Below are positions 5,990 through 37,849 of a stretch of DNA of 64,000 nt, piece after piece. A program made the translations under genes and the position numbers. Under the pieces are notes generated by a model. That model saw only the letters and a program-made list of their open reading frames with translations, searched no databases and had not been told where the DNA came from. This DNA comes from Betaproteobacteria bacterium (GTDB lineage: Bacteria > Pseudomonadota > Gammaproteobacteria > Burkholderiales > Burkholderiaceae_E). Numbering within the stretch: position 1 is the stretch's first letter; every line of letters starts with the position of its first letter. Location of the stretch: NCBI GenBank assembly GCA_016868375.1, contig VGHA01000001.1, positions 1-64,000 on the forward strand, read 5' to 3'.

Positions 5990-6007
5990 CCTGACGCATC
6001 ACTGATC

Positions 6008-6787: not shown

Positions 6788-6798
6788 AATTTAGGGGC

Positions 6799-7794: not shown

Positions 7795-7802
7795 GCATTC
7801 AG

Positions 7803-8696: not shown

Positions 8697-8932
8697 TTAA
8701 ACGCTCCTGATACAGGGTTCTGTCCCCACCTACCCGTTTCTGCGGTCGCCGCGCGAACCATGGAAGCTCCCTTTAATCCCTTGGACACACCGACAATAGC
8801 TTAGCAATGAGCCCAGCACCGCGTCTAACTGACGCGCCGCTGAAATACGCGCTGGACCAACTGGAATGAATCCATTACAACTGCGGTTGACATGCCCCGT
8901 CGCAGGACACCTCACCCCACCGCAAACGCTAC
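8697..8932. other. divergent intergenic region
   Basis: These 236 bases separate two divergently transcribed enzyme genes and must contain both promoters. A short dyad GCGTC-taact-GACGC lies at 8821-8835, and a TTGACA-like hexamer precedes the plus-strand gene near 8886 without a convincing -10 partner. I see no small ORF or RNA gene in it. Confidence 0.5.
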
Positions 8933-19667: not shown

Positions 19668-20399
19668 GTGTCTAGCCCCCTGCGCTCTGATCGTCGCCTG
19701 GTCACGCCCCGGACAACCCTCCTGGTCACCGGCTTTGAGGCGTTCGATGGCCATGCGATCAATGTCTCCTGGGAGGTGGCCCGAACCCTGCAGCGCCGGG
19801 CGGCTACGGTGTTTCCTGAAGTCAGGATGGTTGCAGCAAAGATTCCCTGCCGGTTTGGGGAGTGCATTGACGAGGTCGTCAGGCTGATCCGAGAGGTCCA
19901 CCCAGACTTGGTGATTTGCCTTGGGCAGGCCGAGGGGCGCTCCCAGATTACCGTGGAACGCGTGGCGCTGAATGTTCGTGATGCACGCATCGCTGACAAC
20001 AGGGGTCAGAGGCCCACGGAAGAAGCCGTGATTCCAGGCGGCCCCTACGCGTATCCAAGCCGTCTTCCGGTGGCGGAACTGGTCGCGCAACTGCGCGCCG
20101 ACGGACACCAGGTTGCAGCGTCGTACACCGCAGGAACGTTCGTCTGCAACGATCTGTTTTACGGCCTGATGCACCATCTGGAGCGCACGCCCATCGCGGG
20201 CGGGTTCATTCACCTGCCAATTCTTCCCGAGCAACAGCGGTCGGATGAACAGCGCAGTACCGATCGCGAGGATGCACCGCGTACGATTCATTCCGTAAGC
20301 CCAGCGATGGCGCTGTCGCTTCAGGTTGGCGCCATTGATGCGCTGATTACATTGACGCTTCGTCTGACAGGGCAAACCACACCCCATACGACCCCATGA
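19668..20399 (+). CDS. pcp: pyroglutamyl-peptidase I
   Basis: A 243-residue cysteine peptidase of family C15, starting with GTG at 19668. LLVTGFEAFDGHAINVSWEV is the N-terminal signature, LVICLGQAEGRSQITVERVALNV contains the catalytic Glu, YTAGTFVCNDLFYGLMHHL the nucleophilic Cys, and AGGFIHLPILPEQ the His. All three catalytic residues are present. It removes N-terminal pyroglutamate from peptides in the cytoplasm. Its end overlaps the racemase-family gene (ATGA). The D-glutamate cyclase-like gene elsewhere in the window makes a shared pyroglutamate theme imaginable but unproven. Confidence 0.93.
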   Translation: MSSPLRSDRRLVTPRTTLLVTGFEAFDGHAINVSWEVARTLQRRAATVFPEVRMVAAKIPCRFGECIDEVVRLIREVHPDLVICLGQAEGRSQITVERVALNVRDARIADNRGQRPTEEAVIPGGPYAYPSRLPVAELVAQLRADGHQVAASYTAGTFVCNDLFYGLMHHLERTPIAGGFIHLPILPEQQRSDEQRSTDREDAPRTIHSVSPAMALSLQVGAIDALITLTLRLTGQTTPHTTP

Positions 20400-21175
20400 G
20401 CCTTGAATACGCCCCCAAGGGCCTGCTGGGCGTATTGACGCCTCAGGCCAATACCACCGCCGAGATTGAATTCAACGCGTTGATGCCGCCAGGCTTCGCA
20501 TCGCTGGTGGCACGCATGACCAGCGCACTGCCCGATCTCGAGGGACGGCTCATGGAATACTTTGAGCGACTCGATCAATCGATTGCTCAGTTCGCCAACG
20601 CGCCGCTGACCGCCGTTGCCGTGGCCTGCACAGGATCGTCTTACCTGATGGGTGCACAGCGCGAAGACACGCTGTTTGAAACACTGTCTTTGGAGCGGGG
20701 CGTTCCGGTCACCAGTGCGGGCTTGTCGGTGGTGCAGGCGTGCCAGACCCTGGGCGCACACCGCATTGCAGTGTTATCGCCCTACTCCGACTCGCTAACC
20801 GCTGCCAGTGTTGCCTACTGGCAGGCGCGGGGTCTCGAAGTGGTTGAGGTGGTACGGATCGGATCGGACACCACTTCGTTTCATCCAATTTATTCGATCC
20901 AGGCGAGCGCAACACTGCAGGCCTTGCATGCAGTGCAAACCGATCAGGCCCAGGCCATCATCTGCCTGGGAACAGGCCTGCCCTCGCTCGGAACGATTCT
21001 TTCGAACCCGGTGCATCGGTCGGCGCCGGTGTTTTCCTGCATGCTGGCGCTCGCATGGAATGCGCTGCGTCTGGCGCAGCAGCAGACTGCTGATGCGACA
21101 CGTCTGCGTGATTTCATCGCCGGCAGCGACTGGCAAGCCTCGTTCCGCGCGCGATTCCCTGCACCCCCTGGCTAG
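20396..21175 (+). CDS. Asp/Glu racemase / maleate isomerase superfamily protein
   Basis: A 259-residue protein whose GLLGVLTPQANTTAEIEFNAL opening and AVAVACTGSSYLMG motif match the maleate isomerase/arylmalonate decarboxylase branch. The Cys of ACTGSSY is the expected first catalytic thiol. The second site reads AIICLGTGLPSLG, where many relatives have a Cys directly before the TG(L/N) turn; here a Gly is there and a Cys sits two residues earlier. The enzyme may therefore isomerise, racemise or decarboxylate a small dicarboxylate. Its stop overlaps the convergent monooxygenase stop in a shared CTAG. Confidence 0.82.
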   Translation: MSLEYAPKGLLGVLTPQANTTAEIEFNALMPPGFASLVARMTSALPDLEGRLMEYFERLDQSIAQFANAPLTAVAVACTGSSYLMGAQREDTLFETLSLERGVPVTSAGLSVVQACQTLGAHRIAVLSPYSDSLTAASVAYWQARGLEVVEVVRIGSDTTSFHPIYSIQASATLQALHAVQTDQAQAIICLGTGLPSLGTILSNPVHRSAPVFSCMLALAWNALRLAQQQTADATRLRDFIAGSDWQASFRARFPAPPG

Positions 21176-22371
21176 GCCAGCATTTTGGAGCGCCGCAGGC
21201 CGTCGATCATCGATGTCTTGATAAGGTGAGCGTGACACTTGATGGGGTCGGCAGCGACGGCCTGAAGTGTGGCAAGCATTCGACGTCGGCCCTCAAGGGA
21301 TGCCTCCCACATTCTGGCGCGGTTTCCGTCGGCCTGACCGATCACATCGTCACGCATCACCGGCAGCCGACGTGCCTGATATCGGGCAAGCAGCGCCTGT
21401 GCATCACCCCCGGCAGCAATCTCAAGCAGCGAGTCTGCGAGTTCAAACACATCGTGGATGCCGCCGTTCATGCCCATCCCGCCTTTGGGATGATTCAAGT
21501 GGGCGGCATCCCCCGCAATCGCGATCCGACCTTGAACCCAATGCGAAGCAAGGCGTTGATGCACCCGATAGGGACGAACCTCGCCGACCTGCGCAGTGGC
21601 CGCTGCCGGCGTGATTTGAGCAAGACGCTCCGCCACACGCTCTGGCGCCATCAAGGTCTCCGCGGACTCACCATCATGCGGATGAAGGCTCACCCGCCAG
21701 ACATCCGCAAGACGGAGCAGGCTGTAGGTTCCATCCGGCGCCCAGACGTAGTTGATGCCCGAGAGCCCTGGCAGATGGTCTTCAAAAGGAAATGTGGTGG
21801 TCACCAGAACCGTGGTTTCGGGATAGACCGTTCCCGAGAATACTGCGCCAATCGCCTCACGCACGACGCTACGCGATCCGTCACAGCCCACGAGAAAATC
21901 GCCGTGCTCCAGATGTTCGCCCGCATCAGGATCACGCCAGCGCAGCCATGCGCCGTTGGAATCCTGCCCAACGGCCTCGACGGCTGCACCACGCACGACC
22001 GAGCCTGGCGCATGACGGCTGAGCCAGCCCTCCAGCGTATTGACCAGTACCGATTGATCACATTGCAGCCGCCAGGGATGGCGGGTGGAATCGGCGATGG
22101 CTGCCAGGTCGAACTCTGCGCGCTCGCCCGTCTCGTGCAGGCGAATCTGCCAGGTGGGCGTCTTTCGGCCCGCAGCATGCAGTGCAGCGCCAATGCCGTC
22201 TTCGTCAAGCAGATCAAGCGTGGGCGGGTGAAACGTTGAACTGCGCAGCATCGGCTCAAGCCTGGGGGCGCGCTCGAAAACGCGCACCGCATGGCCGGCG
22301 CGGGCAAGCCGCCAGGCCAGAACCAGCCCGACAGGCCCTGCGCCAACGATCAGGGTGAAGGTAGCTTTCAT
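21172..22371 (-). CDS. FAD-dependent aromatic-type monooxygenase (UbiH/PHBH fold)
   Basis: A 399-residue flavoprotein. ATG 22371 is used instead of the track's TTG three bases upstream. FTLIVGAGPVGLVLAWRLARAGHAVRVFER is the GxGxxG dinucleotide fold, FLVGCDGSRSVVREAIG the DG motif of the class A hydroxylases, and GRIAIAGDAAHLNHPKGGMGMNGGIHD the GD motif. No substrate-specific feature is evident. It is the last gene of the nine-gene run that begins with the Rieske oxygenase, 10 bases after the 2Fe-2S subunit gene. It is expected to hydroxylate a ring activated by the upstream molybdenum hydroxylase. Confidence 0.9.
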   Translation of the reverse strand: MKATFTLIVGAGPVGLVLAWRLARAGHAVRVFERAPRLEPMLRSSTFHPPTLDLLDEDGIGAALHAAGRKTPTWQIRLHETGERAEFDLAAIADSTRHPWRLQCDQSVLVNTLEGWLSRHAPGSVVRGAAVEAVGQDSNGAWLRWRDPDAGEHLEHGDFLVGCDGSRSVVREAIGAVFSGTVYPETTVLVTTTFPFEDHLPGLSGINYVWAPDGTYSLLRLADVWRVSLHPHDGESAETLMAPERVAERLAQITPAAATAQVGEVRPYRVHQRLASHWVQGRIAIAGDAAHLNHPKGGMGMNGGIHDVFELADSLLEIAAGGDAQALLARYQARRLPVMRDDVIGQADGNRARMWEASLEGRRRMLATLQAVAADPIKCHAHLIKTSMIDGLRRSKMLA

Positions 22372-22381
22372 CAATAACGCA

Positions 22382-22915
22382 TCAAACAGTTGTATTGCTT
22401 ACACCGCCCGCAGCATCCAGCCGGTCGCGGGCGACTTCGGCCACGGCGCTGACGATCGCGTGATAACCGGTACAGCGGCAATAATTGCCGGAAAGGTGGT
22501 CTCGGATCTGCGCGCGATCGGTTGTGGGAGCGCGCTCGAGCAACTCTGCCGCACACAGCAGCATGCCCGGCGTGCAAAACCCGCATTGCAGGGCATTATG
22601 GCGGACAAACGCCTGCTGAAGGTCGGCGATGGCACCGGTGGCATCCAGCCCCTCAAGGGTCGTCACCTCGCACCCCTCCACCTGAGCAGCTAAAACCAGG
22701 CACCCCCTGACAATCTCACCATCAACACGAACCGTGCAGGCGCCGCACACGCCATGCTCACAGCCGACATGGGTGGCGGTGAGCTGCAGTTCATGCCTGA
22801 GAAAGTCGGCCAGATGCATCCGGGCTTCGATCCGTCGCCGGACCTGGCGTCCATTGACGGACAGACGAACCTCGAGTTCCGAGCCTGGGCCATCCGCGGC
22901 AAGTGGGGTGTTCAT
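22382..22915 (-). CDS. 2Fe-2S subunit of a molybdenum hydroxylase (XDH/CoxS family)
   Basis: A 177-residue iron-sulfur protein. ATG 22915 is chosen because AAAGGAG lies upstream and it overlaps the preceding stop as ATGA. CEHGVCGACTVRVDGEIVRGC is the plant-type 2Fe-2S site and LQCGFCTPGMLL with GNYCRCTGYHAIV is the second 2Fe-2S cluster domain. These clusters pass electrons from the Mo site to FAD. Its length fits the separate small subunit of nicotinate-, quinoline- or isoquinoline-type hydroxylases. The partners are encoded at 22912-23772 and 25488-27860. Confidence 0.95.
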   Translation of the reverse strand: MNTPLAADGPGSELEVRLSVNGRQVRRRIEARMHLADFLRHELQLTATHVGCEHGVCGACTVRVDGEIVRGCLVLAAQVEGCEVTTLEGLDATGAIADLQQAFVRHNALQCGFCTPGMLLCAAELLERAPTTDRAQIRDHLSGNYCRCTGYHAIVSAVAEVARDRLDAAGGVSNTTV

Positions 22916-23772
22916 GGTGTGTCTCCTTTGAGCCATGACTTTGAGGCGCGCTCAACCAGGACCGCGGCCAGATGAAGCCGGGTATCGGCGTCGGCCTGCA
23001 GATCGGACGGAGGATCGATATCCGCCCTGAGCGCATCCCGGATGTCGCTTCGAACGGGTTGCTGCCCGCGGTTCAAGGCTTCAGCCACGAGTGATTCGGT
23101 CTTCGGCGCACGCTGTGGCCGATCGCCACATCCCAACAATGCAAGACGCACCTCATGCTTTGCCTTTCGCACGGCCGCCAATCCGGCAATCGCGTAATCG
23201 CCGCGACGTCGACTGACTTCATCAAAGAACGGTTTGTCGCCGGGAATCGCTGCGGGAAATTCCACCGACGCAAGAATTTCACCGTCCTGCACCGCGGTGG
23301 TGTAGAGCCCCTGAAAAAAGTCTGATGCGGCGACCGATCGACGGCCTGCCTGCCCCGCTATGTGCATGACCGCGTCAAGCGCCAGCGCGCACGCGGGCAT
23401 TTCCGCTGCGGGGTCAGCGAGCGCCAGGCTGCCGCCCAGCGTGCCACGGTTACGGATTGCCGCATGCGCCACATGAGGAAGCGCCAGCGTGAGCAGCGGC
23501 AGACGCTCAGCCACGACCGCCGAACCCAGCAGCTCTGCGTGCCGCATCAGCGCGCCAATTTGAACTGAACTTGGCGTGGCATGGATGCCCCGCAGCTGCT
23601 GGATACGGCCAATATCGACCAGCACCGCCGGCTGCGCAACGCGCAGCGCCATCATCGGCATGAGGCTCTGACCCCCTGCCAGAACTCTCGCATCTGGCCC
23701 ATGACGCGCCAACGCTTCGAGTGCGCCGCGAATCGAATCTGGACGCAGATAAGCAAACGCGGCGGGCTTCAT
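22912..23772 (-). CDS. FAD-binding subunit of a molybdenum hydroxylase (XDH/CoxM family)
   Basis: A 286-residue protein of the FAD-binding domain in molybdopterin dehydrogenases. VLAGGQSLMPMMALRVAQPAVLVDI is the AGGT-like FAD pyrophosphate loop in its AGGQSL form, and AIRNRGTLGGSLALADPAAEMPA the second TxGGxxxxAdPxxE motif. It carries electrons from the 2Fe-2S clusters to the acceptor. It ends overlapping the 2Fe-2S gene by four bases. The VOC gene at 23807 separates it from the Mo subunit gene. Confidence 0.94.
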   Translation of the reverse strand: MKPAAFAYLRPDSIRGALEALARHGPDARVLAGGQSLMPMMALRVAQPAVLVDIGRIQQLRGIHATPSSVQIGALMRHAELLGSAVVAERLPLLTLALPHVAHAAIRNRGTLGGSLALADPAAEMPACALALDAVMHIAGQAGRRSVAASDFFQGLYTTAVQDGEILASVEFPAAIPGDKPFFDEVSRRRGDYAIAGLAAVRKAKHEVRLALLGCGDRPQRAPKTESLVAEALNRGQQPVRSDIRDALRADIDPPSDLQADADTRLHLAAVLVERASKSWLKGDTP

Positions 23773-23806
23773 GAGGCACCTGTCTGAGCTCTGTCATGCA
23801 GAACGT

Positions 23807-24229
23807 TCAAGGCTTCGCCCCAACCCAGCCTTTATGCGAAATGTCGAACACCACGCCGTTGGGATCACGGAACTTCCGCTCGAAGTCAACGCCGCCACCG
23901 CCTTTCAGCTCGCGGTGAAACCGCCCGCCGTTGCGCTCGATCTGCGCGCTCATGCCTTCCAGATCATCGACGATGAAACCAATGTGATGAATCCCGTTGA
24001 AATCCTTGCCGCGTTCATCGCCCGCCGCATCATCGGTATGAAAGTGCAGCAGCGTCAGGTTGACGACGCCATCTGACAGCGACAGACCATCGCCAAACGG
24101 CGTTGCCGCGAAGTTCACCCGCTTCATGCCAAAGGTGGTTTCGTAGAACTTCGCCGCCGCTTCAATGTCAGGTACCGAAATGGCGATGTGGCGAAGACTG
24201 GCCTTGAGGCCCGATGAGGAGGTGGTCAT
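23807..24229 (-). CDS. VOC (glyoxalase/extradiol-like) family protein
   Basis: A 140-residue single-chain VOC protein with two beta-alpha-beta-beta-beta modules. LRHIAISVPDIEAAAKFYETTFGMKRV gives the first metal-binding His, FNGIHHIGFIVDDLEGM the second, and FRDPNGVVFDISHKG the acidic position as Asp rather than the more usual Glu. Such small proteins include epimerases, glyoxalase-like lyases and accessory isomerases. Being set inside a Rieske/Mo-hydroxylase operon, it may handle a ring-cleavage or CoA-type intermediate. It is about half the size of classic extradiol dioxygenases. Confidence 0.88.
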   Translation of the reverse strand: MTTSSSGLKASLRHIAISVPDIEAAAKFYETTFGMKRVNFAATPFGDGLSLSDGVVNLTLLHFHTDDAAGDERGKDFNGIHHIGFIVDDLEGMSAQIERNGGRFHRELKGGGGVDFERKFRDPNGVVFDISHKGWVGAKP

Positions 24230-24275
24230 GGTTTGCTCCGTTAGCCGGCGCTGCCGGCGTTAACATCAGTATCGG

Positions 24276-25463
24276 TCATGGCGACAGGCTTTCACCAAGC
24301 GGCCGCAGCCATTGCATCAGACGGGATTTAAATTCAAAGCCGACGCCAGGCGCCTCGCTCGCTTTAGCACAACTTTCGGTGATCTCGGTCCCGTCCCAAA
24401 GGCCTCCAAAGGCCAGCGACAGATCGGACGCGGACTCGTGCATGCCCAGGCCGAGTCCGGCCACCGCATGCGCTGCGAACAGATGGCCGGCGTGCGGCAC
24501 CATGGCGCGCCGGGACCAACCCGCTGATTCAAACGACTCCAGGATGCGAAGGTACTCGCCAATGCCATAACTGAGCGAGATGTCGACCTGAATCAGATCG
24601 CGATCAGGTCGAAGCCCACCGTACCGCAGAAGATTGCGCGCGTCATCCCACGAAAACAGGTTCTCACCGGTGGCCACTGGAATTGGCGACATTGCAGCGA
24701 TTCGAGCGAGCCGCTGGTAATCAAGTGGGGAGGCTGGCTCTTCCACCCACGCCACACCCAGCGCGCCCATCGCTTCGAGCCATCGAACCTCAATCAGGGG
24801 ATCGAGCTTGCCGTTTACGTCAACGGCAATTCGTCCGCCCGCCGCCGCATCGATTGCTGCGCGCGCTCTCGCAACATCGTCCTCAAGGTTTGCGCCACCA
24901 ATCTTTACCTTGACCGTTGTGAAGCCGGCAGCTCGCGCGGCAGCCACTTCCGCCGCGAGCCCGTCAAGCTCGGCCGCGCCACGACCGGGTCGAAAGTGTC
25001 CACAAGATCCGTATACCGAAAACACAGCGCCCGAGGCTGTCAAAGGCCGGCCACACTGCTGCGCAAGCACCCGCCAGAGCGGCTTACCTTCGAGCTTCGC
25101 CCGCAAGTCCCAGAGCGCAGCCTCGATCAGTCCCACCGCACCGGGGCGCTCGCCATGTCCACCCTCTTTCTCGTTTTGCATGAGCACTGCAACACAGGCC
25201 GAGGGATCGATGAGGCCGCTCGAGTCAAGCAGTAAGCTTGCATCAGCCGCCAACAGTCGGGGGATGAAGCGGTCCCGCAGCAACCCGCCTTTTCCATATC
25301 GGCCTATGGAATCAAACGCAAACCCGACAACCGGCTGTCCGTCAACAAGGCAGTCGCTGATAACGCACAGCGCCGACGCGGTCATGGCATCGTAGGACAC
25401 CGAAGCATTGCGCATGGGCGCCGACAGCGGAATGGTCTGTTCCCGGATCGCCAGCAATTTCAT
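24276..25463 (-). CDS. mandelate racemase/muconate lactonizing enzyme (enolase superfamily)
   Basis: A 395-residue enolase-superfamily protein. I start it at ATG 25463; the track's TTG at 25487 abuts the preceding TAA without a ribosome-binding site. FTTVKVKIGG carries the catalytic KxK, IAVDVNGKLD the first metal-binding Asp, WVEEPASPLDY the Glu, VATGENLFSWDD the third ligand, and MVPHAGHLFAAHAVAG a His in the general acid/base position. This set resembles acid-sugar dehydratase and mandelate racemase-type members. It abstracts an alpha proton from a carboxylate in the cytoplasm. Finding it between Mo-hydroxylase genes is unusual and points to a hydroxy-acid intermediate. Confidence 0.9.
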   Translation of the reverse strand: MKLLAIREQTIPLSAPMRNASVSYDAMTASALCVISDCLVDGQPVVGFAFDSIGRYGKGGLLRDRFIPRLLAADASLLLDSSGLIDPSACVAVLMQNEKEGGHGERPGAVGLIEAALWDLRAKLEGKPLWRVLAQQCGRPLTASGAVFSVYGSCGHFRPGRGAAELDGLAAEVAAARAAGFTTVKVKIGGANLEDDVARARAAIDAAAGGRIAVDVNGKLDPLIEVRWLEAMGALGVAWVEEPASPLDYQRLARIAAMSPIPVATGENLFSWDDARNLLRYGGLRPDRDLIQVDISLSYGIGEYLRILESFESAGWSRRAMVPHAGHLFAAHAVAGLGLGMHESASDLSLAFGGLWDGTEITESCAKASEAPGVGFEFKSRLMQWLRPLGESLSP

Positions 25464-25487
25464 GTTTCGGCCCGCTCGTCCAAGCAA

Positions 25488-27860
25488 TTACGCGGCCGTC
25501 TCGTGCTCGCGCGGGGATACCGAGCCCAGCGCGCGCAGGACACGTTCTGGCGTGATAGGCAGCTCAAATATTTCCGCACCATACGCTGAGAGCGCATCGT
25601 TGACCGCATTGGCCACCGCGGCAGCGGCACCAACGATACTGGCCTCACCCACGCCCTTGCCACCCAGTAATGAGCCTGGTACCGGAGTCTCAACGTGGCC
25701 GATCTCGATATCAGGCATTTCAGCGGCCATCGGCACCAGATAGTCCGCCAATGTGCCGGTCAGAAGCTGCGCCTGATCGTCGTATCGGCACTCCTCAAAG
25801 AGTGCTGCGCCGATCCCCTGTACGACGCCACCTCGCAGTTGCTCATCAACCAGCAAAGGATTGATGACGCGGCCGCAGTCATCCACTACCCAATGCCTGA
25901 GCAGGTGGACCAGACCGGTATCGATGTCCACTTCAACCAGACTTGCCTGGATGCCATTGGCGATCTGATAGGGGCGCGAGGGCTGAACATGGGCGGTCAC
26001 CATCGGGTCGATTGGACCCGATTGCCCAAGCCGATGTGGCTGATAGTGAAGCGCGAAGCCCAGTTCAGCGAGCGTGACGCTGCGATCGGTGCCCGCCACG
26101 TGCACCGCACCGTCGCGAAACTCGAGGTCAGACTCTGCGGTCTCAAGCAATTCAGCGGCCGCTTTTGCAAGCCGCAGCTTCAACTGCTGGACCGCCACAA
26201 GTGTCGCCTCGCCGCTGACCGAGAGCCCTCGCGATGCCCAGGTACCGCCCCCGACCGGTGTCACGGCGGTATCGCCATGCACGATCCGGACTGACTCCAG
26301 TGCAATACCGAAGGCGTCAGCGATCAGCTGCGCAAGACCCGTTTCAAGGCCCTGCCCCTGAAACTGTGCGCTGGTAATGCAGGACAGCCCGCCACTTGAT
26401 TCAAGTCTCAGCGAGCAGCCGTCGCCTGCGGCGATCGGCACGCCAGCGCCGCCATAGACCCGCGAATTGGGCGCAGACTGCTCGATGAAGCTTGCGAACC
26501 CAATGCCCAGCGCGCGGCCGTTGGCGCGCGCCTCGCGCTGACGTTTGCGAAGTGACGGGTAGTCCATCAATTCAAGCAGCTGATCGGTGCAGGCTTGAAA
26601 ACTCAGCTCGCCGCCGGGATCAAGACCGCCAGGCGTCAGTGCGCCATCCCGGTCGAGTTGTCGAAAATTACGGCGACGAATCTCGACCGGATCCAGGTCC
26701 AGCGCGCGGGCGGCCGAGTCAATCATCATTTCGGTCACCGCGCACGCAATCGGTTGTCCCACGCCGCGATAAGAGCCGATGGCAGGCTTGTTTTGGAAGG
26801 CCACACGTACGCGCGCCTGGAGCGACATGGCCCGATAAGGCGCTGCGATTCCCGATATCGCGTGCAGCGCTTCCAACGCGCTGGTGCGGGGATATACCGA
26901 CACCGCCCCTGCTTCAACCTGATCGTCGACCTCAAACCCAAGCAGCGTTCCGTCAGCGCCCACCCTGACCGCAGCATCCACACGATGCGCCCGCGCATGA
27001 ATATCCGAGGCAAAGGCCTCAAGCCTGTCGACCACATATTTGACCGGACGCCCCAGCAGCCGGCTGGCTGCCGCAATCGCCATTTCGTCTTCGTAACAGT
27101 GCAGCTTCACGCCAAAACCGCCACCCACGTCGGGTACGATCACCCGAACCTGATGCTCCTCGAGCGAAAGGTGTGTCGCGAGCATGGCACGCATCTGATG
27201 CGGCACCTGCGTTGATGCGTGAACCGTCAGCTGGTTTTGGGCAGGATCGAAGTCGGCGATCAAACCGCGCGGCTCAAGCGATACACCGGTGTGACGCGGA
27301 AACTGAAAGTGATGGCGCAGTTCCACCGCAGCAGGCGGGTGCTCGCGCACCGAATCAATTCGGTGTTCAAACAGTACATTGTTGCCGAGCGCCTGATGCA
27401 GAACCGGCGCGTCATCGGCCAGCGACTGGGCGGCGGTGGCAAGAGCGGGGAGCGGCTCCCATTGCGCTGACAGCAACGCAACCGCGTCCTCAGCCTGCGC
27501 CACACTCTCGGCAATCATTAGCGCAACGGGTTGACCCTGCCACAGAGACCGATCGCGAACCAGTGCGGTCTGTTCAACCGAGCGATGCGCAGCGAGCGTT
27601 GGCATGCGCGCGGTCCAGGGTGTCAGCACCGGCTCGAGATCGGCCGCTGCAAACACCGCGACGACACCTGGCGCCTGCCGGGCCGCCTCGCTGTCGAGCG
27701 AGAGTAGCTTCGCGTGGGCATAGGGGCTGCGCAGGAACGCGGCATGCAGAACGCCGGCAACCCTCAGGTCGTCAAGGTAGCGCCCCCTGCCGGCTGCTAG
27801 CTGACGGGCCTTCGGCCGGGCGATCGGCTGCCCGATCAGACCAGACTGCGAGGTTGCCAT
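25488..27860 (-). CDS. molybdopterin-binding catalytic subunit of an XDH-family hydroxylase
   Basis: A 790-residue large subunit starting at ATG 27860. KARQLAAGRGRYLDDL is the usual opening, GGGFGVKLHCYEDEMAIAAASRLLGRPVKYV a pterin-binding region, AIGSYRGVGQPIACAVTEMMIDSAA the SYRGxG loop near the Mo, and GGKGVGEASIVGAAAAVANAV the GxGE motif with the catalytic Glu. It lacks the AYxCSFR loop of true CO dehydrogenase, so it is a hydroxylase of an aldehyde, purine or aromatic N-heterocycle. Water supplies the oxygen atom. It follows dctP by 8 bases. Confidence 0.94.
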   Translation of the reverse strand: MATSQSGLIGQPIARPKARQLAAGRGRYLDDLRVAGVLHAAFLRSPYAHAKLLSLDSEAARQAPGVVAVFAAADLEPVLTPWTARMPTLAAHRSVEQTALVRDRSLWQGQPVALMIAESVAQAEDAVALLSAQWEPLPALATAAQSLADDAPVLHQALGNNVLFEHRIDSVREHPPAAVELRHHFQFPRHTGVSLEPRGLIADFDPAQNQLTVHASTQVPHQMRAMLATHLSLEEHQVRVIVPDVGGGFGVKLHCYEDEMAIAAASRLLGRPVKYVVDRLEAFASDIHARAHRVDAAVRVGADGTLLGFEVDDQVEAGAVSVYPRTSALEALHAISGIAAPYRAMSLQARVRVAFQNKPAIGSYRGVGQPIACAVTEMMIDSAARALDLDPVEIRRRNFRQLDRDGALTPGGLDPGGELSFQACTDQLLELMDYPSLRKRQREARANGRALGIGFASFIEQSAPNSRVYGGAGVPIAAGDGCSLRLESSGGLSCITSAQFQGQGLETGLAQLIADAFGIALESVRIVHGDTAVTPVGGGTWASRGLSVSGEATLVAVQQLKLRLAKAAAELLETAESDLEFRDGAVHVAGTDRSVTLAELGFALHYQPHRLGQSGPIDPMVTAHVQPSRPYQIANGIQASLVEVDIDTGLVHLLRHWVVDDCGRVINPLLVDEQLRGGVVQGIGAALFEECRYDDQAQLLTGTLADYLVPMAAEMPDIEIGHVETPVPGSLLGGKGVGEASIVGAAAAVANAVNDALSAYGAEIFELPITPERVLRALGSVSPREHETAA

Positions 27861-27868
27861 GCCGCGCT

Positions 27869-28828
27869 TCACCGATCCAGCACCTGACGCAACGCCCGCG
27901 TCTGATCGGGCGCACGCCTGATCATTTCGCCCCAATACGCTTCATAGGCCCCTTTACGGAAATCCGCCCCCAAATCGACCGAACGAATGCCCGCATCCGC
28001 CTGACGCTTGCTTTCCGAGGCCACCTTGTCGGCCACCCACTTCAGATTCTCCTGATCGAACCAGGCGACAGTCTTTTCAAGCGCATCGCGTTGTGCCTGA
28101 GTAAGCGATTGCCACTTACGATCGTTGACCAGCACATTGACAATCACCGTGTAAAAGCCCGGGTCGACGCGGTAACGGGTGAAATTGGCCCATCCCAAAT
28201 CAAAGATTCCGATCAGCGGCCAGCCATAGCCTTCCACCACGCCCCGCTCAAGCGCCTGCTGAACTTCACCTGGCGCGGTATTGATGAGGCTCACACCCAG
28301 CGCCTGGAAAAACGGTGTGTAGTTCGGCGTGGTCCGTAGCTTCATGCCCTTCAGATCTTCGACCTTCGCGACAGGCTTGTTGGTGAAGATGTGAAAGCGA
28401 ATGCCGTCGCCGTAAGACGCCAGCAGATGCGCGCCCATCCGCTGCTTGTGCGCGGCCTGAAGTGTCGCGTAAGCACCAGACTTTTTCTGCTCGATGGTTG
28501 AGGTGGTTGCCAGAATCTGCGAGTCGGCCTCGGGCATGACGCTTACGTAAAACGCGGGTGGCAGACACACCACATCCAGCACCCCGCTTCGAACCGCATT
28601 GGCCTGCTCAAACGACGGAATCGCCTCAGGGCCGCCCACCAACCTGATCTGAACTGTTCCCTTGGCCTCGGTATTGAGCTGATTCACGAACCGGCCACAC
28701 ATTTCGCCAAACGCGGTGTTGACCGGAACGAACACGCCAGCACGAAGCGTTACCTCCTGGGCGGCCACCGTACCAATCACGCCCGCTGACAGCATCAGCG
28801 CGGCCATCGTATTGACAACAGATTTCAT
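27869..28828 (-). CDS. TRAP transporter DctP-type substrate-binding protein (orphan)
   Basis: A 319-residue exported receptor with a signal ending near VAAQ and a strong AGGAG site. VTLRAGVFVPVNTAFGEMCGRFVNQL, FTNKPVAKVEDLKGMKLRTTPNYTPFFQALG and the LERGVVEGYGWP stretch are typical of the DctP fold. No dctQ or dctM gene accompanies it. It is embedded between the Rieske beta-subunit gene and the Mo-hydroxylase gene. It should bind the pathway substrate or a related acid and deliver it to a TRAP permease encoded elsewhere. Confidence 0.9.
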   Translation of the reverse strand: MKSVVNTMAALMLSAGVIGTVAAQEVTLRAGVFVPVNTAFGEMCGRFVNQLNTEAKGTVQIRLVGGPEAIPSFEQANAVRSGVLDVVCLPPAFYVSVMPEADSQILATTSTIEQKKSGAYATLQAAHKQRMGAHLLASYGDGIRFHIFTNKPVAKVEDLKGMKLRTTPNYTPFFQALGVSLINTAPGEVQQALERGVVEGYGWPLIGIFDLGWANFTRYRVDPGFYTVIVNVLVNDRKWQSLTQAQRDALEKTVAWFDQENLKWVADKVASESKRQADAGIRSVDLGADFRKGAYEAYWGEMIRRAPDQTRALRQVLDR

Positions 28829-28868
28829 TCATGTCTCCTGTTAAAAGAGTTGGTCGGAATGGGTCGAT

Positions 28869-29354
28869 CTACAAGGGAACAGCCAGGCCACGGTGGGGCG
28901 AATCGCAATCGATGAGTCGAATCGTTTTGGCAGCGATTTGAAGCCCCTGTGTGCCCCTGACGACCTGGTGTTGGCAGTGTGCGCTAAAGAGCTGTTTCTC
29001 AGCCGCACGCAGCATCACGATGAGTTGCATCGACTGAACCTCGAACACATCGTGGCTTACGGAATGGGCACGAAGTCCGCTGAGGTGGTGATGCGTTCGC
29101 GAGGAAGGCTGTTCAACATGTATGACAGGACTGGCCAGGCGTCGAACCCGCAGCGCGAGCAGGCGTCGATCCTCAAAGACCAGCGATAGCGAATCGTCAG
29201 GCGAGTTCTGCCCCCATGAGGCAGGCATCCAGTACCAACTATCCTCGGTAAACAGGGAAAGCCAATCGTCAAATCGCCGCTCATCGAGCAGGCGCGCCTC
29301 GCACTCCACCAGTTCAATCGCTTCACGCGCCGGGTCTGAGCTGATGTGCGTCAT
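28869..29354 (-). CDS. ring-hydroxylating dioxygenase beta subunit (SnoaL-like)
   Basis: A 161-residue protein starting at ATG 29354, which overlaps the alpha-subunit stop as ATGA and has a GGGAG site. AIELVECEARLLDERRFDDWLSLFTEDSWYWMPAS is the typical N-terminus of hydroxylase small subunits, and SRTHHHLSGLRAH a conserved mid-section. The subunit is structural: it packs with alpha to form the oxygenase hexamer. The paired order alpha then beta with overlap supports a true two-component oxygenase. Confidence 0.9.
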   Translation of the reverse strand: MTHISSDPAREAIELVECEARLLDERRFDDWLSLFTEDSWYWMPASWGQNSPDDSLSLVFEDRRLLALRVRRLASPVIHVEQPSSRTHHHLSGLRAHSVSHDVFEVQSMQLIVMLRAAEKQLFSAHCQHQVVRGTQGLQIAAKTIRLIDCDSPHRGLAVPL

Positions 29355-30673
29355 ACCGCGCTCCCGGACTGCGACATCCAATGCCGCCAGGACGCGAACT
29401 GCAGCCGAATCGGCAGCTCGCTGGTGCCTGGCGCGATCGTTTCACCGTCCACTTCGCGGTCGACCGCCAGCCCCCTGGATATGTCGAGCCACTCTGGACC
29501 GGCCCCCGCAAAGCCACGCTGGCATCGCTCGAAAATTTCGAGGTCGTCGGCTGCGACGAGCGACACCGGCGAAGCAGCCGCGGTCAGGAAGCGCAACGTC
29601 AATCGGGTCATCTCTTCGGGCGCCCCCTCCAGGGCAAAGCACCAGCTGGTCACCTGGGTCAAATCAACCGAAAGGGGTTGCACAACCCGCATTGCCTGAA
29701 ACCGCGAGTTGATCGATAGATTGGGCCACAGCAGATTATTGAATCGGTCTATAGAAAGTATCTCTCGCGCGCGCTCCTCACCCTGCGCGCCGGCCAACGC
29801 TTCAAAGTAGCGCTGGAAAACTGGATCGTCGCGCTGCGCAGCGATCACGCCCTGGCGGTAGAAGCTATCCATGCTGACGTGTCCGCCAGAAAAACCGTGG
29901 ATGGAAAGCTCGTTCCATTCAGCAGGCCGCAAACCGTTGGCGAGTTGCATCTGAACCACCTGCCCGGTCACCCCAGTCAGTGTTGCCGCCTCGCGATCGG
30001 CACGGGCGGCTGCCACCGCGCTGGCGTGCACGAATCCCGGGTGCACCAGGTCAACGGCGTTCTCCATGAACAGTTTCCAGTTGCCGCGGTACAGCATGCG
30101 CAAGGCGCCGCCCACCTGGGTGACCCGACCCGACGGCGCCCGGTCCACCAGATTGTCGATGGCGAAGGCGATACCCCCGAGAAATTCCGGGAGCGAGGGC
30201 CCCTCCGCTGCGTGGCTGGCAAAGATGAAGCCACGATACGACTGAAGCCTGGGCGCGCGCGCAACCTGTCTGGCCGAGGCATCGTCTAGAAATGTTGAAG
30301 CGTAGCCCTCAGGGAGCGGCAATCCGGTCAGCCGCCCAGCGGGATCGAAGCTCCATGCGTGATAGGGACAAATCAGGTGCCGACTCGACCCGCGCTCTGC
30401 TGCAACCAGGCGCGCGCCGCGATGCGGGCAGCGGTTGTGGAGCAGCGACAGTGCCCCCTCCTCGCCGCGAATCAGGATCATCTCGTCGGGCCCCAGCCGC
30501 GTCAGCAACCAGTCTCCGACCGAAGGAACCTGACTTTCGTGACCAACATACAGCCAGGCTCGCCTGAAGATGCGCGCCTGTTCAGCGGCAAACACTGCCG
30601 GATCGGTGTAAACCGAGCGGTGAACGGCGCTCTCGGAGGCAAGCGCGGAGAATTCAAAGTCTGAAAGGCTCAT
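29351..30673 (-). CDS. Rieske ring-hydroxylating dioxygenase alpha subunit
   Basis: A 440-residue catalytic subunit. ATG 30673 (MSLSDFEFSA) is preferred to the track's TTG four codons earlier. CPHRGARL and LICPYHAWSFD contribute the two Cys and two His of the Rieske cluster near residues 80-105. GNWKLFMENAVDLVHPGFVHASA supplies the bridging Asp and the two His of the mononuclear iron site. It belongs to the benzoate/anthranilate/toluate-like class by general appearance. No ferredoxin or reductase gene follows, so electron partners must be shared. It heads the nine-gene minus-strand run. Confidence 0.94.
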   Translation of the reverse strand: MSLSDFEFSALASESAVHRSVYTDPAVFAAEQARIFRRAWLYVGHESQVPSVGDWLLTRLGPDEMILIRGEEGALSLLHNRCPHRGARLVAAERGSSRHLICPYHAWSFDPAGRLTGLPLPEGYASTFLDDASARQVARAPRLQSYRGFIFASHAAEGPSLPEFLGGIAFAIDNLVDRAPSGRVTQVGGALRMLYRGNWKLFMENAVDLVHPGFVHASAVAAARADREAATLTGVTGQVVQMQLANGLRPAEWNELSIHGFSGGHVSMDSFYRQGVIAAQRDDPVFQRYFEALAGAQGEERAREILSIDRFNNLLWPNLSINSRFQAMRVVQPLSVDLTQVTSWCFALEGAPEEMTRLTLRFLTAAASPVSLVAADDLEIFERCQRGFAGAGPEWLDISRGLAVDREVDGETIAPGTSELPIRLQFASWRHWMSQSGSAV

Positions 30674-30852
30674 TCGACAACGCAAAAACGATTACCGTTC
30701 GGTGAACGCCCGTCCATCCCATACCCGCCAGGTCGGGCAGCGCAGGATGATGACGATCATTCGCTCCGATGACAAGCGGTAGCGAACCGAGAACCGGGGT
30801 TTGCCCGCCAATCACCACGTGACCTAAAATTTGGTGGTAGCCGTCTGTCTAA

Positions 30853-32300: not shown

Positions 32301-33047
32301 TCAGTCGAGCACCAGCGCGCCACTGGTGTTGAATACCTCGCCGCTGACGGCGCCGCAATCATCGGAAAGCAGAAACGCAACCTGCGCGGCAACCTGCTGC
32401 GCAGTACTGAATCGACCCAGCGGAATTGTCTTCAGCAGGCGCGCACGCCCCGAGGGCCCCAGGCGATCCAGCATCACCGTATCCACCGGACCCGGGGCGA
32501 TACAGTTCACGCGCACGCCGGCGCCAGCCCAGTCACGCGCAAGAAAACGCGCGAGGTTGAGGATTCCTGCTTTCGCCACGGCGTAGGCCGCGCCCGACAC
32601 CGCACTGCCGCCGGTCCGCCCGTTGGTTGACGAGAACAACACCGCCGCACCAAGTGCTTGAGCAAGGTGCGGTGCAGCCTCCCGACAGAACAGGAATGCA
32701 GAGTCGAGATTGACCGCCATCTGTGAGCGCCACATGTCAAGTGAGCAGTGGTCAATGCCTCCGCTGCCCACCTTTCCCACCGTGTGCACCAGCCAATCGA
32801 TACGCCCGAAATGCTCGACGGTCCGTGCGACCGCATGAACCACGTCGCTTTCGCAGGTGACATCGCCCGATAGCGGCAAGAATCGCCCAGTGGTGCGTGC
32901 CTTGAGCCGAGAGGGCATATCGAAGGCGGCCACGCGTGCGCCGTTCGCGCGAAGACGTGACACGACCGCCTGGCCAATCCCCCCGGCTGCTCCGGTATCC
33001 AACGTAACCTTGGAAGGACCGTTTTCCTTGACGCCTTGGGCGGGCAC
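32301..33047 (-). CDS. short-chain dehydrogenase/reductase
   Basis: A 248-residue SDR starting with GTG at 33047. VTLDTGAAGGIGQAVVSRL is the TGxxxGxG cofactor loop, LPLSGDVTCESDV the D-V adenine pocket, AVLFSSTNGRTGGSAVSGAAYAVAKAGILN the catalytic Ser and YxxxK, and NCIAPGPVDTVM the PG motif. AAFDMPSR at strand 2 carries Asp, suggesting NAD(H) preference. Its frame begins 3 bases after the heme-oxygenase-like gene, so the two are co-expressed. Its substrate is unknown; conversion of a hydroxyl to a ketone is expected. Confidence 0.9.
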   Translation of the reverse strand: MPAQGVKENGPSKVTLDTGAAGGIGQAVVSRLRANGARVAAFDMPSRLKARTTGRFLPLSGDVTCESDVVHAVARTVEHFGRIDWLVHTVGKVGSGGIDHCSLDMWRSQMAVNLDSAFLFCREAAPHLAQALGAAVLFSSTNGRTGGSAVSGAAYAVAKAGILNLARFLARDWAGAGVRVNCIAPGPVDTVMLDRLGPSGRARLLKTIPLGRFSTAQQVAAQVAFLLSDDCGAVSGEVFNTSGALVLD

Positions 33048-33050
33048 GGA

Positions 33051-33782
33051 TCAAGCCGCCTTGTTGGACTTCCAGGCGCCCGTCTCGATGGCGCCCCAGA
33101 TACCATCGAGCATGGCCAGACGCTGCCTGGCAGAGGCGGCGACCGCGGCGATGGCCTTGCGCTGCAGCGCGGGCGTGTGCGCATAACGATAGGTGATTTC
33201 CAGCCCCTCGCCCTCGTGGTGGGTATCGTTCTCGATGTGCACATGGAAAAACTCGAGATCCTCGTCGGTCATCCCCATCGACCGACATGCCTCGACGTAG
33301 CGCGGATACAGCGTGGGCGTCTGCCCCTCCAACGCAACCATGATTCCCGCAGCAGCTTCAGCAAGCTCGCGAAACGCAACCAGCTCGTAAATCCAGCTGC
33401 GCATCGCACGGGTGCCCGGAAGAATGTCGCCGCGATCAGCGGCCTCGCGAACACGCTTCGGCGACACGCCGCACGCCTGCGCAAACCGAAGCAGCAGATC
33501 AGGGTGACGTTTACCGGGCTGATCAGGAACCTCTTCGCCGATCAGGTTCTCGAGCATGTGTCGACGCGCATCGAGATCGGGCAGCCGGCAGAAAAAGTGA
33601 CCGAACTGCTGCGGAATGAGCTCGATGTAGTAGTAGTGCTGCATCGCCCAGAAGCCCAGCTGTGCGCGGGTCAGTTCGCCGTTGGCCCAGGCCAATGAGA
33701 ACGGGTGGCCCTTGGAATGGCGCTGCGTCCGGGCGGCAATCAGCGCCTCGCCGAAGGCCTTGCGGTTCATCATTTTTTCCAT
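33051..33782 (-). CDS. PqqC/TenA-like heme-oxygenase-fold protein, possible diiron oxidase (HDO)
   Basis: A 243-residue all-helical protein with AAGGAT before the ATG. FSLAWANGELTRAQLGFWAMQHYYYIELIPQQFG and LENLIGEEVPDQPGKRHPDLLLRFAQACGV recall the PqqC/CADD group. The E-x-x-x-H pattern with FFHVHIENDTHHEGEG late in the chain places carboxylates and His where heme-oxygenase-like diiron oxidases bind two irons. PqqC itself binds no metal, so an HDO is the better guess. No other pqq gene is near. It is paired with an SDR, suggesting an O2-dependent oxidation followed by a dehydrogenation. Confidence 0.8.
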   Translation of the reverse strand: MEKMMNRKAFGEALIAARTQRHSKGHPFSLAWANGELTRAQLGFWAMQHYYYIELIPQQFGHFFCRLPDLDARRHMLENLIGEEVPDQPGKRHPDLLLRFAQACGVSPKRVREAADRGDILPGTRAMRSWIYELVAFRELAEAAAGIMVALEGQTPTLYPRYVEACRSMGMTDEDLEFFHVHIENDTHHEGEGLEITYRYAHTPALQRKAIAAVAASARQRLAMLDGIWGAIETGAWKSNKAA

Positions 33783-33823: not shown

Positions 33824-34795
33824 TTAGCGGACCTGGCTTCCGAGGCGCTTCACGATCTCGCCGTAGCGACGATGGTCGGTTGCGATCTGGCGCGCCATTT
33901 CATCGGGCGTGGATGTGACGATGTGTGCATCCTGCCCGCCTACTGAGGCGGTTACCTCAGGCGAGCGCGCCGCGCGCACCAGTTCGGCATTGAGGCGCTG
34001 GACGATCGCGTCCGGCACCTTGACGGGAACAAAGAAGCCGAACCACTGATCGTACTCGACATCGCGAATGCCCAGTTCGGCCAGCGTTGGCACGTCTGGC
34101 AACATCGATGAGCGCTTCGGGCCGGCATAAGCCAGTGCCTTCAGCCGCCCCTCTTTCAAAAACGCCTGCGCGGAAATGTAGGACGAAAACAGCACATCGA
34201 TTCGTCCGCCCACAGTTTCGGTAACCGCCTGCGCAGCACCCTTCATTGGCACATGCACCATGGGTGCGCCCGTGACCCGTTGCAGCATCTCGCCCAGAAA
34301 ATGCCCCGCCGTGCCCGTGCCTTGCGACGCAAAGGTCAGTCCTCCCTGCCGGGACTTGGCGAGCGCGATCAGTTCTTTGACGTTATTGGCTGGCAGCGAT
34401 GCGGGCACCACCAGAATGCTGTGGAAGGAAAAAAACGAGGTTACCGGACGGAAGTCGCGGTTGGCATCGAACGCAACCTGCACGTTCAGATGCGGATCAA
34501 TCGCATGCGTGCCCACATGACCAACAAACACCGAATAGCCATCGGCAGGCTGCGCAAGCACCGCCTGCGCCGCAATCGCACCGGCTGCACCGGGCCGGTT
34601 CTGAACAACCACTGGCTGCCCAGTGTTTTCGGAGAGCTTTTGCGTGATCAGACGGGCAACCCGATCCGTTGAGCCCCCAGGCGGGAACGGGACGAACACC
34701 GTAATCGCCTTAGCGGGAAACGCCGCGTCGGCAAACGACAAGGGCGCAATCAGGCACCCTATCAAGGCCAGAGTCCATTTAAGCGCTCGCGACAC
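33824..34795 (-). CDS. Bug/TctC-family periplasmic receptor
   Basis: A 323-residue receptor. The start GTG 34795 (VSRALKWTLALIG) is chosen over the ORF-track start because GGGAG lies seven bases before it and it places a signal peptide at the N-terminus. AITVFVPFPPGGSTDRVARLITQKLSENTGQPVVVQNRPGAAGAIAAQAV is the standard Bug opening and LPDVPTLAELG the conserved C-terminal element. No tctA/tctB genes are here. Such proteins bind small carboxylates in the periplasm and sometimes act as sensors. Confidence 0.92.
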   Translation of the reverse strand: MSRALKWTLALIGCLIAPLSFADAAFPAKAITVFVPFPPGGSTDRVARLITQKLSENTGQPVVVQNRPGAAGAIAAQAVLAQPADGYSVFVGHVGTHAIDPHLNVQVAFDANRDFRPVTSFFSFHSILVVPASLPANNVKELIALAKSRQGGLTFASQGTGTAGHFLGEMLQRVTGAPMVHVPMKGAAQAVTETVGGRIDVLFSSYISAQAFLKEGRLKALAYAGPKRSSMLPDVPTLAELGIRDVEYDQWFGFFVPVKVPDAIVQRLNAELVRAARSPEVTASVGGQDAHIVTSTPDEMARQIATDHRRYGEIVKRLGSQVR

Positions 34796-35037
34796 GGAAC
34801 ATCTCCCTGGTTCAGCCCCCTCTGCAGAGGCGGCGTGGTCGGTTAACGGTTCACTTCTAAGGTGATTGAAGGTTTGATGGTAGCCGAGCACACCGTCGTT
34901 CGGCCAGATCTGATTTCATCGCAGCGGCATCAGCCAACCTGAGACCACGCGCGCGGGGGCGCGCCGGCGAAACGCTGCCACCGCATCACCAGACAAGCCG
35001 CTAGACTTTCCACAATTTCCGCAGCCGGGAGGCCTTT
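34796..35037. other. divergent intergenic region between two Bug genes
   Basis: The 242-base gap separates two divergent Bug receptor genes and must hold both promoters. It contains the GGGAG and GGGAGG ribosome-binding sites of the flanking GTG starts. The ORF track covers most of it with the 5' extension of the left Bug ORF, which I discard because a signal peptide only appears from 34795. I see no RNA gene or convincing operator. Confidence 0.5.
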
Positions 35038-36012
35038 GTGATCAATCAAACCCGTCGTCAATTGGTGGTCGGTTCCGCGACCGCGCTGGCCAGTCCAACG
35101 CTTCTTGCGCAGGCCTATCCGAGCCGGCCGGTACGAATCATCGTGCCGACCACACCGGGAGGCGGTTACGACAATCTGGGCCGCTGGGTATCGGAGAAGC
35201 TGTCGTCCGAACTCGGGGTGGGCGTCGTGATTGAGAACCGCACCGGGGGCGGTACGCTGGTCGGAACCCAGGTTGCGGCCGCAGCAACCCCTGACGGCTA
35301 CACACTGGTGGTGGGCGGCCTCGCGAACATGGCCCTCAATGGCGGGCTTTATAAAAATCCGCAATACGACGCGGCAAATGATTTCGTGCCGATCGCACTG
35401 GTTGCAAGCTTCAGTTATTGCCTTGTTGCACGCCGTGATCTGCCGCAAAACACACTGCCTGAACTGCTTGCCTATGCCAGGGCGAATCCCGGCAAGCTCA
35501 ACATGGCCACTGGCGGTACCGGCTCGGGCCAACATGTGGCTGCCGTGATGCTTCGGCGGCTCGCCAATATTCAGATGGTTGAAATTCCATACAAGGGCGC
35601 GCAGGCCGCTTACACCGATCTGGTGGGCGGCCGGGTCGACCTGTTCTTCGACAACACCACCACCGCGCAACCCCTGATTGAGGCTGGCCGGATCAAAGCC
35701 ATCGCCACCTCCGGCACACGGCGGGATGCGTCGCTGCCCAACGTGCCCACCGCCACCGAGGCGGGTCTTGATGGCCTGGTGCTGGAAAGCTGGCTCGGCA
35801 TATTTGCGCCCTCGCGCACACCGGCTCCGGTGGTATCGCGGCTACGCGATGCGATGGCCAGGGTGTCGGCTGCACCCGACCTGCGAAAGCGACTCGAGGA
35901 CGGCGGCTGGAGGATGCTAGACCTCGACCCTGCCAGCACCGAACGCTTCGTGCGGGCCGAGGCGCAGCGCTGGCCGAAGTTCCTGCGGGAAGCGGGGATC
36001 AGCGGTGAATGA
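35038..36012 (+). CDS. Bug/TctC-family periplasmic receptor
   Basis: A 324-residue receptor starting with GTG at 35038 behind GGGAGG. The signal MINQTRRQLVVGSATALASPTLLAQ is twin-arginine-like. PVRIIVPTTPGGGYDNLGRWVSEKLSSELGVGVVIENRTGGGTLVGTQV and VGGRVDLFFDNTTTAQPLI are family-typical. It overlaps a SnoaL-like gene by eight bases, so the receptor is co-translated with a soluble enzyme-like protein. It is not closely identical to either neighbouring Bug protein, so this is not a recent duplication. Confidence 0.92.
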   Translation: MINQTRRQLVVGSATALASPTLLAQAYPSRPVRIIVPTTPGGGYDNLGRWVSEKLSSELGVGVVIENRTGGGTLVGTQVAAAATPDGYTLVVGGLANMALNGGLYKNPQYDAANDFVPIALVASFSYCLVARRDLPQNTLPELLAYARANPGKLNMATGGTGSGQHVAAVMLRRLANIQMVEIPYKGAQAAYTDLVGGRVDLFFDNTTTAQPLIEAGRIKAIATSGTRRDASLPNVPTATEAGLDGLVLESWLGIFAPSRTPAPVVSRLRDAMARVSAAPDLRKRLEDGGWRMLDLDPASTERFVRAEAQRWPKFLREAGISGE

Positions 36013-36595
36013 CCACGTGCTTGAGATCGAACGCCTGATGCGCTGCTGGGCGCTCTGGCGCGACACCCGCCAGTGGGACCTGCTTCGAACCTGCTATGTG
36101 CCCGGCGCCCGGGTTCGTACCACCTGGCTGGAGGGCTCGGCCGAAGCGTTCATTGCCGCATCGATTCAATCCGCGGCCAATTCAAAGGCACCGCTTGCTC
36201 AGCACGCCCTCGGTGGAACCACCGTGCGCCTGAACGGCGACCGAGCGCTTGCTGAGACGCGGATGGTTCTGCTGCTTCGCGCGGTCATCGATGGCACCGA
36301 GGTGGACATCACCGCCTGGGGCAGGTTCTTTGACCGCTGTGTACGCGCTGACGATCAATGGCGGATCGCACAACGCGACCCAATCCATGAGAAGGATCGC
36401 CTCGACCCGGTCGATCCAAGCGCAACGCTTTTACTGGACCCGGTCCGACTGGCCTCGCTGCCCAGGGCATACCGGCACATTACCTATGTGCAGTCGCTGG
36501 GCGGCGCCCGCATTACGCCGGATCTGGTCGAACACAACTCGCCCGCACAGGCAGCCCTGTATGAGGCTGGGGAGGCCTGGCTACGCGAGGGCTGA
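36005..36595 (+). CDS. SnoaL/NTF2-like protein
   Basis: A 196-residue protein starting with GTG at 36005 inside the Bug gene end. LEIERLMRCWALWRDTRQWDLLRTCYVPGARVRTTWLEGSAEAFIAAS is the NTF2-like first helix and sheet, and AWGRFFDRCVRADDQWRIAQRDPIHEKDRLDPV the characteristic later strands. The fold hosts isomerases, dehydratases and hydroxylase small subunits; no catalytic Asp-His pair can be assigned with certainty. Fusion-like coupling to a Bug receptor suggests it acts on that receptor's ligand. Confidence 0.8.
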   Translation: MNDHVLEIERLMRCWALWRDTRQWDLLRTCYVPGARVRTTWLEGSAEAFIAASIQSAANSKAPLAQHALGGTTVRLNGDRALAETRMVLLLRAVIDGTEVDITAWGRFFDRCVRADDQWRIAQRDPIHEKDRLDPVDPSATLLLDPVRLASLPRAYRHITYVQSLGGARITPDLVEHNSPAQAALYEAGEAWLREG

Positions 36596-36603
36596 GCCTT
36601 GAG

Positions 36604-37368: not shown

Positions 37369-37401
37369 CAACCGCTCCAGTGGGGATGACTGCGCCGGGC
37401 C

Positions 37402-37821: not shown

Positions 37822-37849
37822 GGGTTGTCCTTGGGAGCGATGTCAGGTC

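Follow-up and report, generated by a model that had tools for sequence, protein, structure and literature searches.

The nine-gene unit and its conserved core

Contig VGHA01000001.1 of an uncultured Betaproteobacteria bacterium of the Burkholderiales type, known from a 390-contig metagenome assembly totalling 4.67 Mb (GCA_016868375.1), carries a compact set of nine genes within its first 64,000 nucleotides, the stretch analysed here and hereafter called the window. All nine lie on the minus strand and run as one unit from position 30673 to 21172 when the open reading frames (ORFs) are read from ATG starts. They encode, in order, the alpha and beta subunits of a Rieske ring-hydroxylating oxygenase (RHO), the TRAP transporter solute-binding protein DctP, the large subunit of a molybdenum (Mo) hydroxylase (MoL), an enolase-superfamily enzyme of the MR/MLE type, a vicinal oxygen chelate (VOC) protein, the FAD and 2Fe-2S subunits of the Mo hydroxylase, and a flavin monooxygenase (FMO). 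The successive intergenic distances are -4 (an ATGA overlap), 40, 8, 24, 46, 34, -4 (again ATGA) and 10 bp with the preferred ATG starts; the RHO alpha frame has a TTG start at 30685 before the ATG at 30673, where the original prediction placed the end of the operon. That prediction had described nine genes on one strand in this order, several of them with ATGA overlaps or gaps below 60 bases, and the layout is confirmed (the largest gap is 46 bp and two overlaps are present), as are its family assignments, with which Pfam and NCBIfam agree for each gene. Its description of a single transcription unit with a catabolic gene set is likewise supported.

The unit is flanked on one side by a convergent gene (20396-21175) whose product has the arylmalonate decarboxylase/Asp-Glu racemase fold; the end of the FMO gene overlaps it by 4 bp. 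On the other side lies a divergent gene for a tetratricopeptide repeat (TPR) protein at 30853. A promoter and terminator scan gave site counts no higher than in shuffled sequence, and none is claimed. According to Pfam analysis of its genes, the unit holds neither a reductase nor a regulator, in keeping with the predicted absence of an electron-transfer partner and a regulator. DctP (27869..28828) matches Pfam DctP and scores above the NCBIfam cut-off for TRAP_S1, and no gene for DctQ or DctM is present within the unit.

Six of the genes, RHOalpha-RHObeta-dctP-MoL-MR/MLE-VOC, form a core that is conserved as a unit. A scan of GTDB genomes with the VOC protein as query yielded ten loci at 77-91% identity, with the next relatives at 58% or below; the MR/MLE gene adjoins the VOC gene in 10/10 loci above this gap, and the operon was found at none of the loci below it. 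RHO alpha, RHO beta and MoL are present in the above-gap loci wherever the contig reaches far enough upstream, save L038. The full core order is repeated in L025, L032, L033, L034 and L035, L039 has it without dctP at the usual place, and the short contigs L024, L036, L037 and L038 carry a partial core. L038 also deviates in order, with dctP divergent upstream of MR/MLE and no MoL found in its 6 kb contig. Within the genus, the order is preserved in genome G036, with proteins 63-91% identical, and partly, within the limits of the contig, in G037, while in divergent genomes the order recurs at 55-67% identity for most proteins (lower for RHO beta); this recurrence is more than chance. Among 399 genomes of the order, G000 and G248 are the only two with an orthologue of RHO alpha (E at most 1e-120) and likewise the only two with an orthologue of VOC above the identity gap.

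Conservation of gene order is looser for the other three genes. The FAD and 2Fe-2S subunit genes follow VOC in the window, G036, G037, L032, L036 and L039, but the unit lacks them in L033-L035, three genomes that have other FAD subunits located elsewhere. The FMO gene adjoins the unit only within the genus, and there in the window alone; it is outside the unit in 7/7 other loci with a readable downstream side, and in G036, a sister species, it lies 4 kb off, with another Mo hydroxylase and an aldose-epimerase gene in between. Such a distribution would suit a six-gene core accompanied by loosely placed neighbours (the FAD and 2Fe-2S subunits and the FMO) that also serve other pathways. This alternative is rather less likely than not. 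FAD and 2Fe-2S subunits stand after VOC also in L032, L036 and L039, and the gaps of 10 bp or less among the FAD, 2Fe-2S and FMO genes mean that these are most likely co-transcribed in the window. In L033 and L034, the end of the VOC gene is overlapped by a gene for an aromatic-acid/H+ symporter-type protein of the major facilitator superfamily (MFS), which points to an aromatic acid as the substrate. A long protein of L034 considered as an indolepyruvate oxidoreductase was ruled out, being a DUF748/AsmA protein.

The core genes also appear to share their history. In protein trees of seven loci, RHO alpha, RHO beta, MoL and MR/MLE have one shared topology, and the VOC tree deviates in a single weakly supported branch. 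In these operon trees L032 clusters with the genus of the window, and two other placements, patterned on rpoB relationships, were rejected (approximately unbiased test, p<0.001; only 1000 replicates). In contrast, rpoB identity, from a comparison that did not include two outside genomes, places L032 nearer L039 and L033-L035 (84-85% vs 79%), with weak support (0.56) for the internal branch concerned. Since the core trees agree with one another but conflict with a weak rpoB branch for one genome, it is likely, though not proven, that the core moved as a whole set between lineages.

Component enzymes and their nearest relatives

The RHO (alpha subunit, 29351..30673; beta subunit, 28869..29354, overlapping the alpha gene by ATGA) has the features of Rieske ring-hydroxylating oxygenases of the alpha3beta3 type, namely the CxH...CxxH motif, a His-His-Asp iron site and a beta subunit, and matches Pfam Rieske, Ring_hydroxyl_A and Ring_hydroxyl_B. 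Its alpha subunit has its best PDB matches in 9o71 and 7yls, and the nearest solved structure, at about 40% identity, is 9o71, that of IadDE (PMC12633357). This auxin oxygenase of Variovorax (PDB 9o71, 7yls, 8h2t; PMC10374108, PMC12633357) is also an alpha+beta Rieske enzyme and is reported as a monooxygenase (PMC12633357). The Rieske and iron ligands are kept in 7/7 copies of RHO alpha, and Asn210 and Arg329 (IadD numbering) are likewise common to both enzymes. However, five residues of the indole-3-acetate (IAA) pocket, as defined for IadD (PMC10374108), are replaced in 7/7 copies (Leu211->Ala, Phe251->Gln/Leu, His311->Phe, Lys322->Asn and Tyr362->Phe). The iad operon further comprises the reductase IadC, a CoA ligase, a thiolase and an amidase (PMC12633357), whereas the unit has other partner genes, and Pfam and NCBIfam detect in it neither an IadC-type reductase nor the iad genes for CoA-dependent side-chain removal. 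Because the pocket differs from that of IadD, auxin is not the expected substrate; an iad-type operon for IAA degradation, to which the kinship with IadD would otherwise point, is very improbable and was rejected on the changed pocket and the missing partner genes. The window's own genome contains 19 RHO-type matches and 4 PF00970 proteins, the latter on other contigs, and these numbers, together with the absence of a reductase from the unit, fit a shared reductase supplied in trans. G000 has an additional Rieske alpha/beta pair (41% and 34%) in L093 (contig C5, 22000-38000), at most about 9 kb from a TRAP DctM gene and a MoL gene, which makes a parallel RHO-TRAP-Mo grouping in that genome.

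The MR/MLE enzyme (24276..25463) has as its best solved relatives 1tzz and TarD, the D-tartrate dehydratase of Bradyrhizobium japonicum (Bll6730; PDB 2dw7), both at E about 1e-99. It has in common with TarD the fold and the full catalytic set, since Lys102, Lys184, Asp213, Glu239, Glu265 and His322 (TarD numbering) are kept in all operon copies. Its pocket, by contrast, is altered: Asn55->Ile, Tyr156->His and Gly323->Ala occur in all operon copies, while a single copy lacks the change Tyr157->Phe and two copies lack Tyr158->Arg. The operon enzymes are 43-48% identical to TarD, as opposed to 70-83% for the true TarDs of the same bacterial family, and a class-wide sample of 369 genomes contained no operon-type copy besides that of the window, with two other matches at 45-46%. 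Judged by these comparisons, the operon enzymes are a sister subfamily of D-tartrate dehydratase, and the combination of conserved catalytic residues with a uniformly changed pocket indicates that their chemistry should be TarD-like and their substrate different. An isofunctional TarD was therefore rejected on the changed pocket and the clear separation from true TarDs. That the whole operon serves D-tartrate use is the least probable explanation considered: conservation of every TarD catalytic residue speaks for it, but the identity values separate the two groups, Asn55, Tyr156, Tyr157 and Gly323 have changed together, the gene sits in an oxygenase operon, and tartrate use needs no oxygenase. 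The predicted action of the MR/MLE protein on a hydroxy acid is nonetheless supported, as the enzyme is by sequence a TarD-type dehydratase with every catalytic residue kept.

The Mo hydroxylase belongs to the xanthine oxidase family, as indicated by its three subunits and its catalytic Glu. It consists of MoL (25488..27860; Pfam Ald_Xan_dh_C, MoCoBD_1 and MoCoBD_2), the FAD subunit (22912..23772; FAD_binding_5 and CO_deh_flav_C) and the 2Fe-2S subunit (22382..22915; Fer2 and Fer2_2), whose gene shares an ATGA overlap with that of the FAD subunit. The best PDB score of MoL is with QorL of quinoline 2-oxidoreductase (QorMSL; 1t3q), another three-subunit Mo hydroxylase with the YRGVG motif and catalytic Glu, although identity to QorL is only 33-38% (35% for the window copy). 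The GxGE catalytic Glu and the [SA]YRGVG motif are kept in every MoL copy that covers them. The active-site loop of CO dehydrogenase is AYRCSFR, and aerobic CO dehydrogenase was rejected, given [SA]YRGVG in place of this loop in all covering copies and scores below the NCBIfam cut-off.

The specificity of this enzyme is less clear-cut. The PDB scores of QorL (446 bits) and CO dehydrogenase (417 bits) are so close that the nearest-match label is weak, and all three subunits score highest, far below the cut-off, with the NCBIfam model for glyceraldehyde dehydrogenase. Moreover, most record titles of the operon loci suggest lake or soil samples. The enzyme may accordingly oxidise side-chain aldehydes, with a carbocyclic aromatic acid of lignin or humic type, lacking a ring nitrogen, as the substrate and the other steps unchanged. 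This alternative appears somewhat unlikely, as the [SA]YRGVG motif and the best PDB score point to quinoline 2-oxidoreductase, and in L090 a MoL paralogue of 60% identity adjoins an amidohydrolase gene, a setting that would suit N-heterocycles. N-heterocycle specificity is possible from sequence, and the N-heteroaromatic substrate proposed originally is so far a suggestion that draws on 35% identity to QorL, while the top NCBIfam model is glyceraldehyde dehydrogenase. Besides that of L090, the nearest Mo hydroxylase paralogues lie in operons of another kind. In L087, one lies beside genes for hydantoinase/oxoprolinase-type A and B proteins (Pfam) and a short-chain dehydrogenase/reductase (SDR); L088 and L089 have ORFs of similar size in the same order around theirs. 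L032 contains two tandem MoL copies in one operon (3904-8779), 61% and 63% identical to the window's MoL.

The single-domain VOC protein (23807..24229; Pfam Glyoxalase) is the most conserved protein of the unit, at 76-91% identity, and an alignment of 26 sequences shows His14, His82 and Asp129 to be invariant. Its AlphaFold model (mean predicted local distance difference test, pLDDT, 88.8) has a fold nearest to methylmalonyl-CoA epimerases, at 20-23% identity. The metal site of methylmalonyl-CoA epimerase is His/Gln/His/Glu. In the VOC protein, the Gln position is Thr or Ala (alignment by eye) and the triad is His/His/Asp, and the NCBIfam epimerase score is 36 bits against a cut-off of 115, on which grounds this function was rejected. 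An extradiol-type VOC dioxygenase would have a 2-His-1-carboxylate iron site for ring cleavage; the operon protein offers His14, His82 and Asp129, with Asp instead of Glu, and has a single domain. The window encodes another VOC protein of this family at 37402-37821, next to an HpcH/HpaI aldolase gene; it is 35% identical to the operon's VOC.

The FMO (21172..22371) is a Group A flavin monooxygenase, with a Pfam FAD_binding_3 domain, best PDB matches to PnpA and HspB, and the stretches GAGPVG, GCDG and AGDAAH corresponding to the GxGxxG, DG and GD motifs. Both the FdeE/FdeC naringenin pathway and the ifc isoflavone cluster are described as using an FMO for ring hydroxylation and, after it, a glyoxalase-type protein for ring dioxygenation (PMC11069340). 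This is a precedent by description for the FMO and VOC pair of the operon; unlike the operon, these systems have no Rieske or MR/MLE partner in the passages of PMC11069340 that were consulted. The naringenin dioxygenase FdeC was looked for among the VOC relatives, and each of three Herbaspirillum genomes gave a single VOC match (44-45%), at most a candidate FdeC. In L067, an uncultured Acidimicrobiales, an FMO gene (35%) and an HpcH-like match come immediately after the gene for a distant VOC relative (44%), and a TenA-like match lies 6 kb upstream of it; this locus may represent a VOC-FMO pairing that arose independently in a different phylum.

Beyond the divergent TPR gene, the window contains SDR and TenA/haem-oxygenase-like genes (32301-33782); G036 has the pair in the corresponding position (80% and 90-93% identity), and in other lineages it was not seen near the operon. 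Three TctC-type solute-binding genes follow within 5 kb (33824-38815), multiple tctC genes being typical of tctC-rich beta-proteobacteria.

Proposed catabolic role

Taken together, the unit is probably a catabolic operon by which an aromatic or heteroaromatic carboxylic acid is taken up and degraded aerobically. The observations underlying this proposal are the single unit, its conserved order, its joint inheritance, the intact catalytic residues and the uniformly changed pockets. DctP would bind the acid on the outer side of the membrane, its DctQM partners being encoded elsewhere, and the Rieske enzyme, drawing electrons from a shared reductase in trans, would place O2-derived oxygen onto the ring. 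The order of the subsequent steps is a guess: the Mo hydroxylase might introduce oxygen from water, either beside a ring nitrogen or on an aldehyde group, the VOC metalloenzyme might cleave or isomerise the oxidised ring product, and the TarD-like enzyme might then take the alpha-proton of a hydroxy acid through its Lys184 equivalent and expel the beta-hydroxyl, for which its His322 equivalent would serve as the acid; the product would be a 2-oxo or unsaturated acid. In the window's genus, the FMO would add a further hydroxyl.

Several points weigh against this proposal. The substrate is deduced from homology, and the nearest characterised relatives are distant (about 40-45% identity for RHO alpha and MR/MLE, 35% for MoL and about 20% for VOC). 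The conserved core contains neither a ring-diol (cis-diol) dehydrogenase nor a ring-fission hydrolase, the Mo enzyme could be an aldehyde oxidoreductase on its NCBIfam scores, the VOC fold is nearest to methylmalonyl-CoA epimerase, and all operon-bearing host genomes are metagenome assemblies. Nor is the original suggestion that the nine genes make a complete route shown, given an FMO outside the unit elsewhere, FAD and 2Fe-2S subunits outside it in three genomes, and a core without a cis-diol dehydrogenase. A more speculative and rather improbable extension of the catabolic proposal is that the TarD-like enzyme replaces the diol dehydrogenase and processes the Rieske product itself, removing the alpha-proton and expelling the oxygenase-installed beta-hydroxyl after the Mo hydroxylase has added water-derived oxygen; if true, this would explain a core without a diol dehydrogenase.

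In a literature search limited to open-licence papers, no described pathway was found with this gene combination, in agreement with the original prediction. The same enzyme families recur in SAR202 bacteria, where expansions of enolases, flavin monooxygenases and ring-hydroxylating dioxygenases have been proposed to act on resistant dissolved organic matter (PMC6946804). Unlike the operon, those expansions are made up of scattered paralogues, most of them belonging to separate SAR202 groups, and do not form one operon (PMC6946804).

Each enzyme of the operon comes from a known family, and what is new is their fixed combination and the TarD-sister subfamily. We know of no earlier enolase-superfamily dehydratase that acts directly on an oxygenase product, and a TarD-like enzyme working on the Rieske product would then be the first of its kind. 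If the proposed catabolic role is correct, the operon would represent a new type of catabolic cluster in lake and soil metagenome assemblies, define a new enolase-superfamily subfamily whose function is made testable by its defined partner enzymes, and provide an added marker, outside the ocean, for the degradation of resistant dissolved organic matter.

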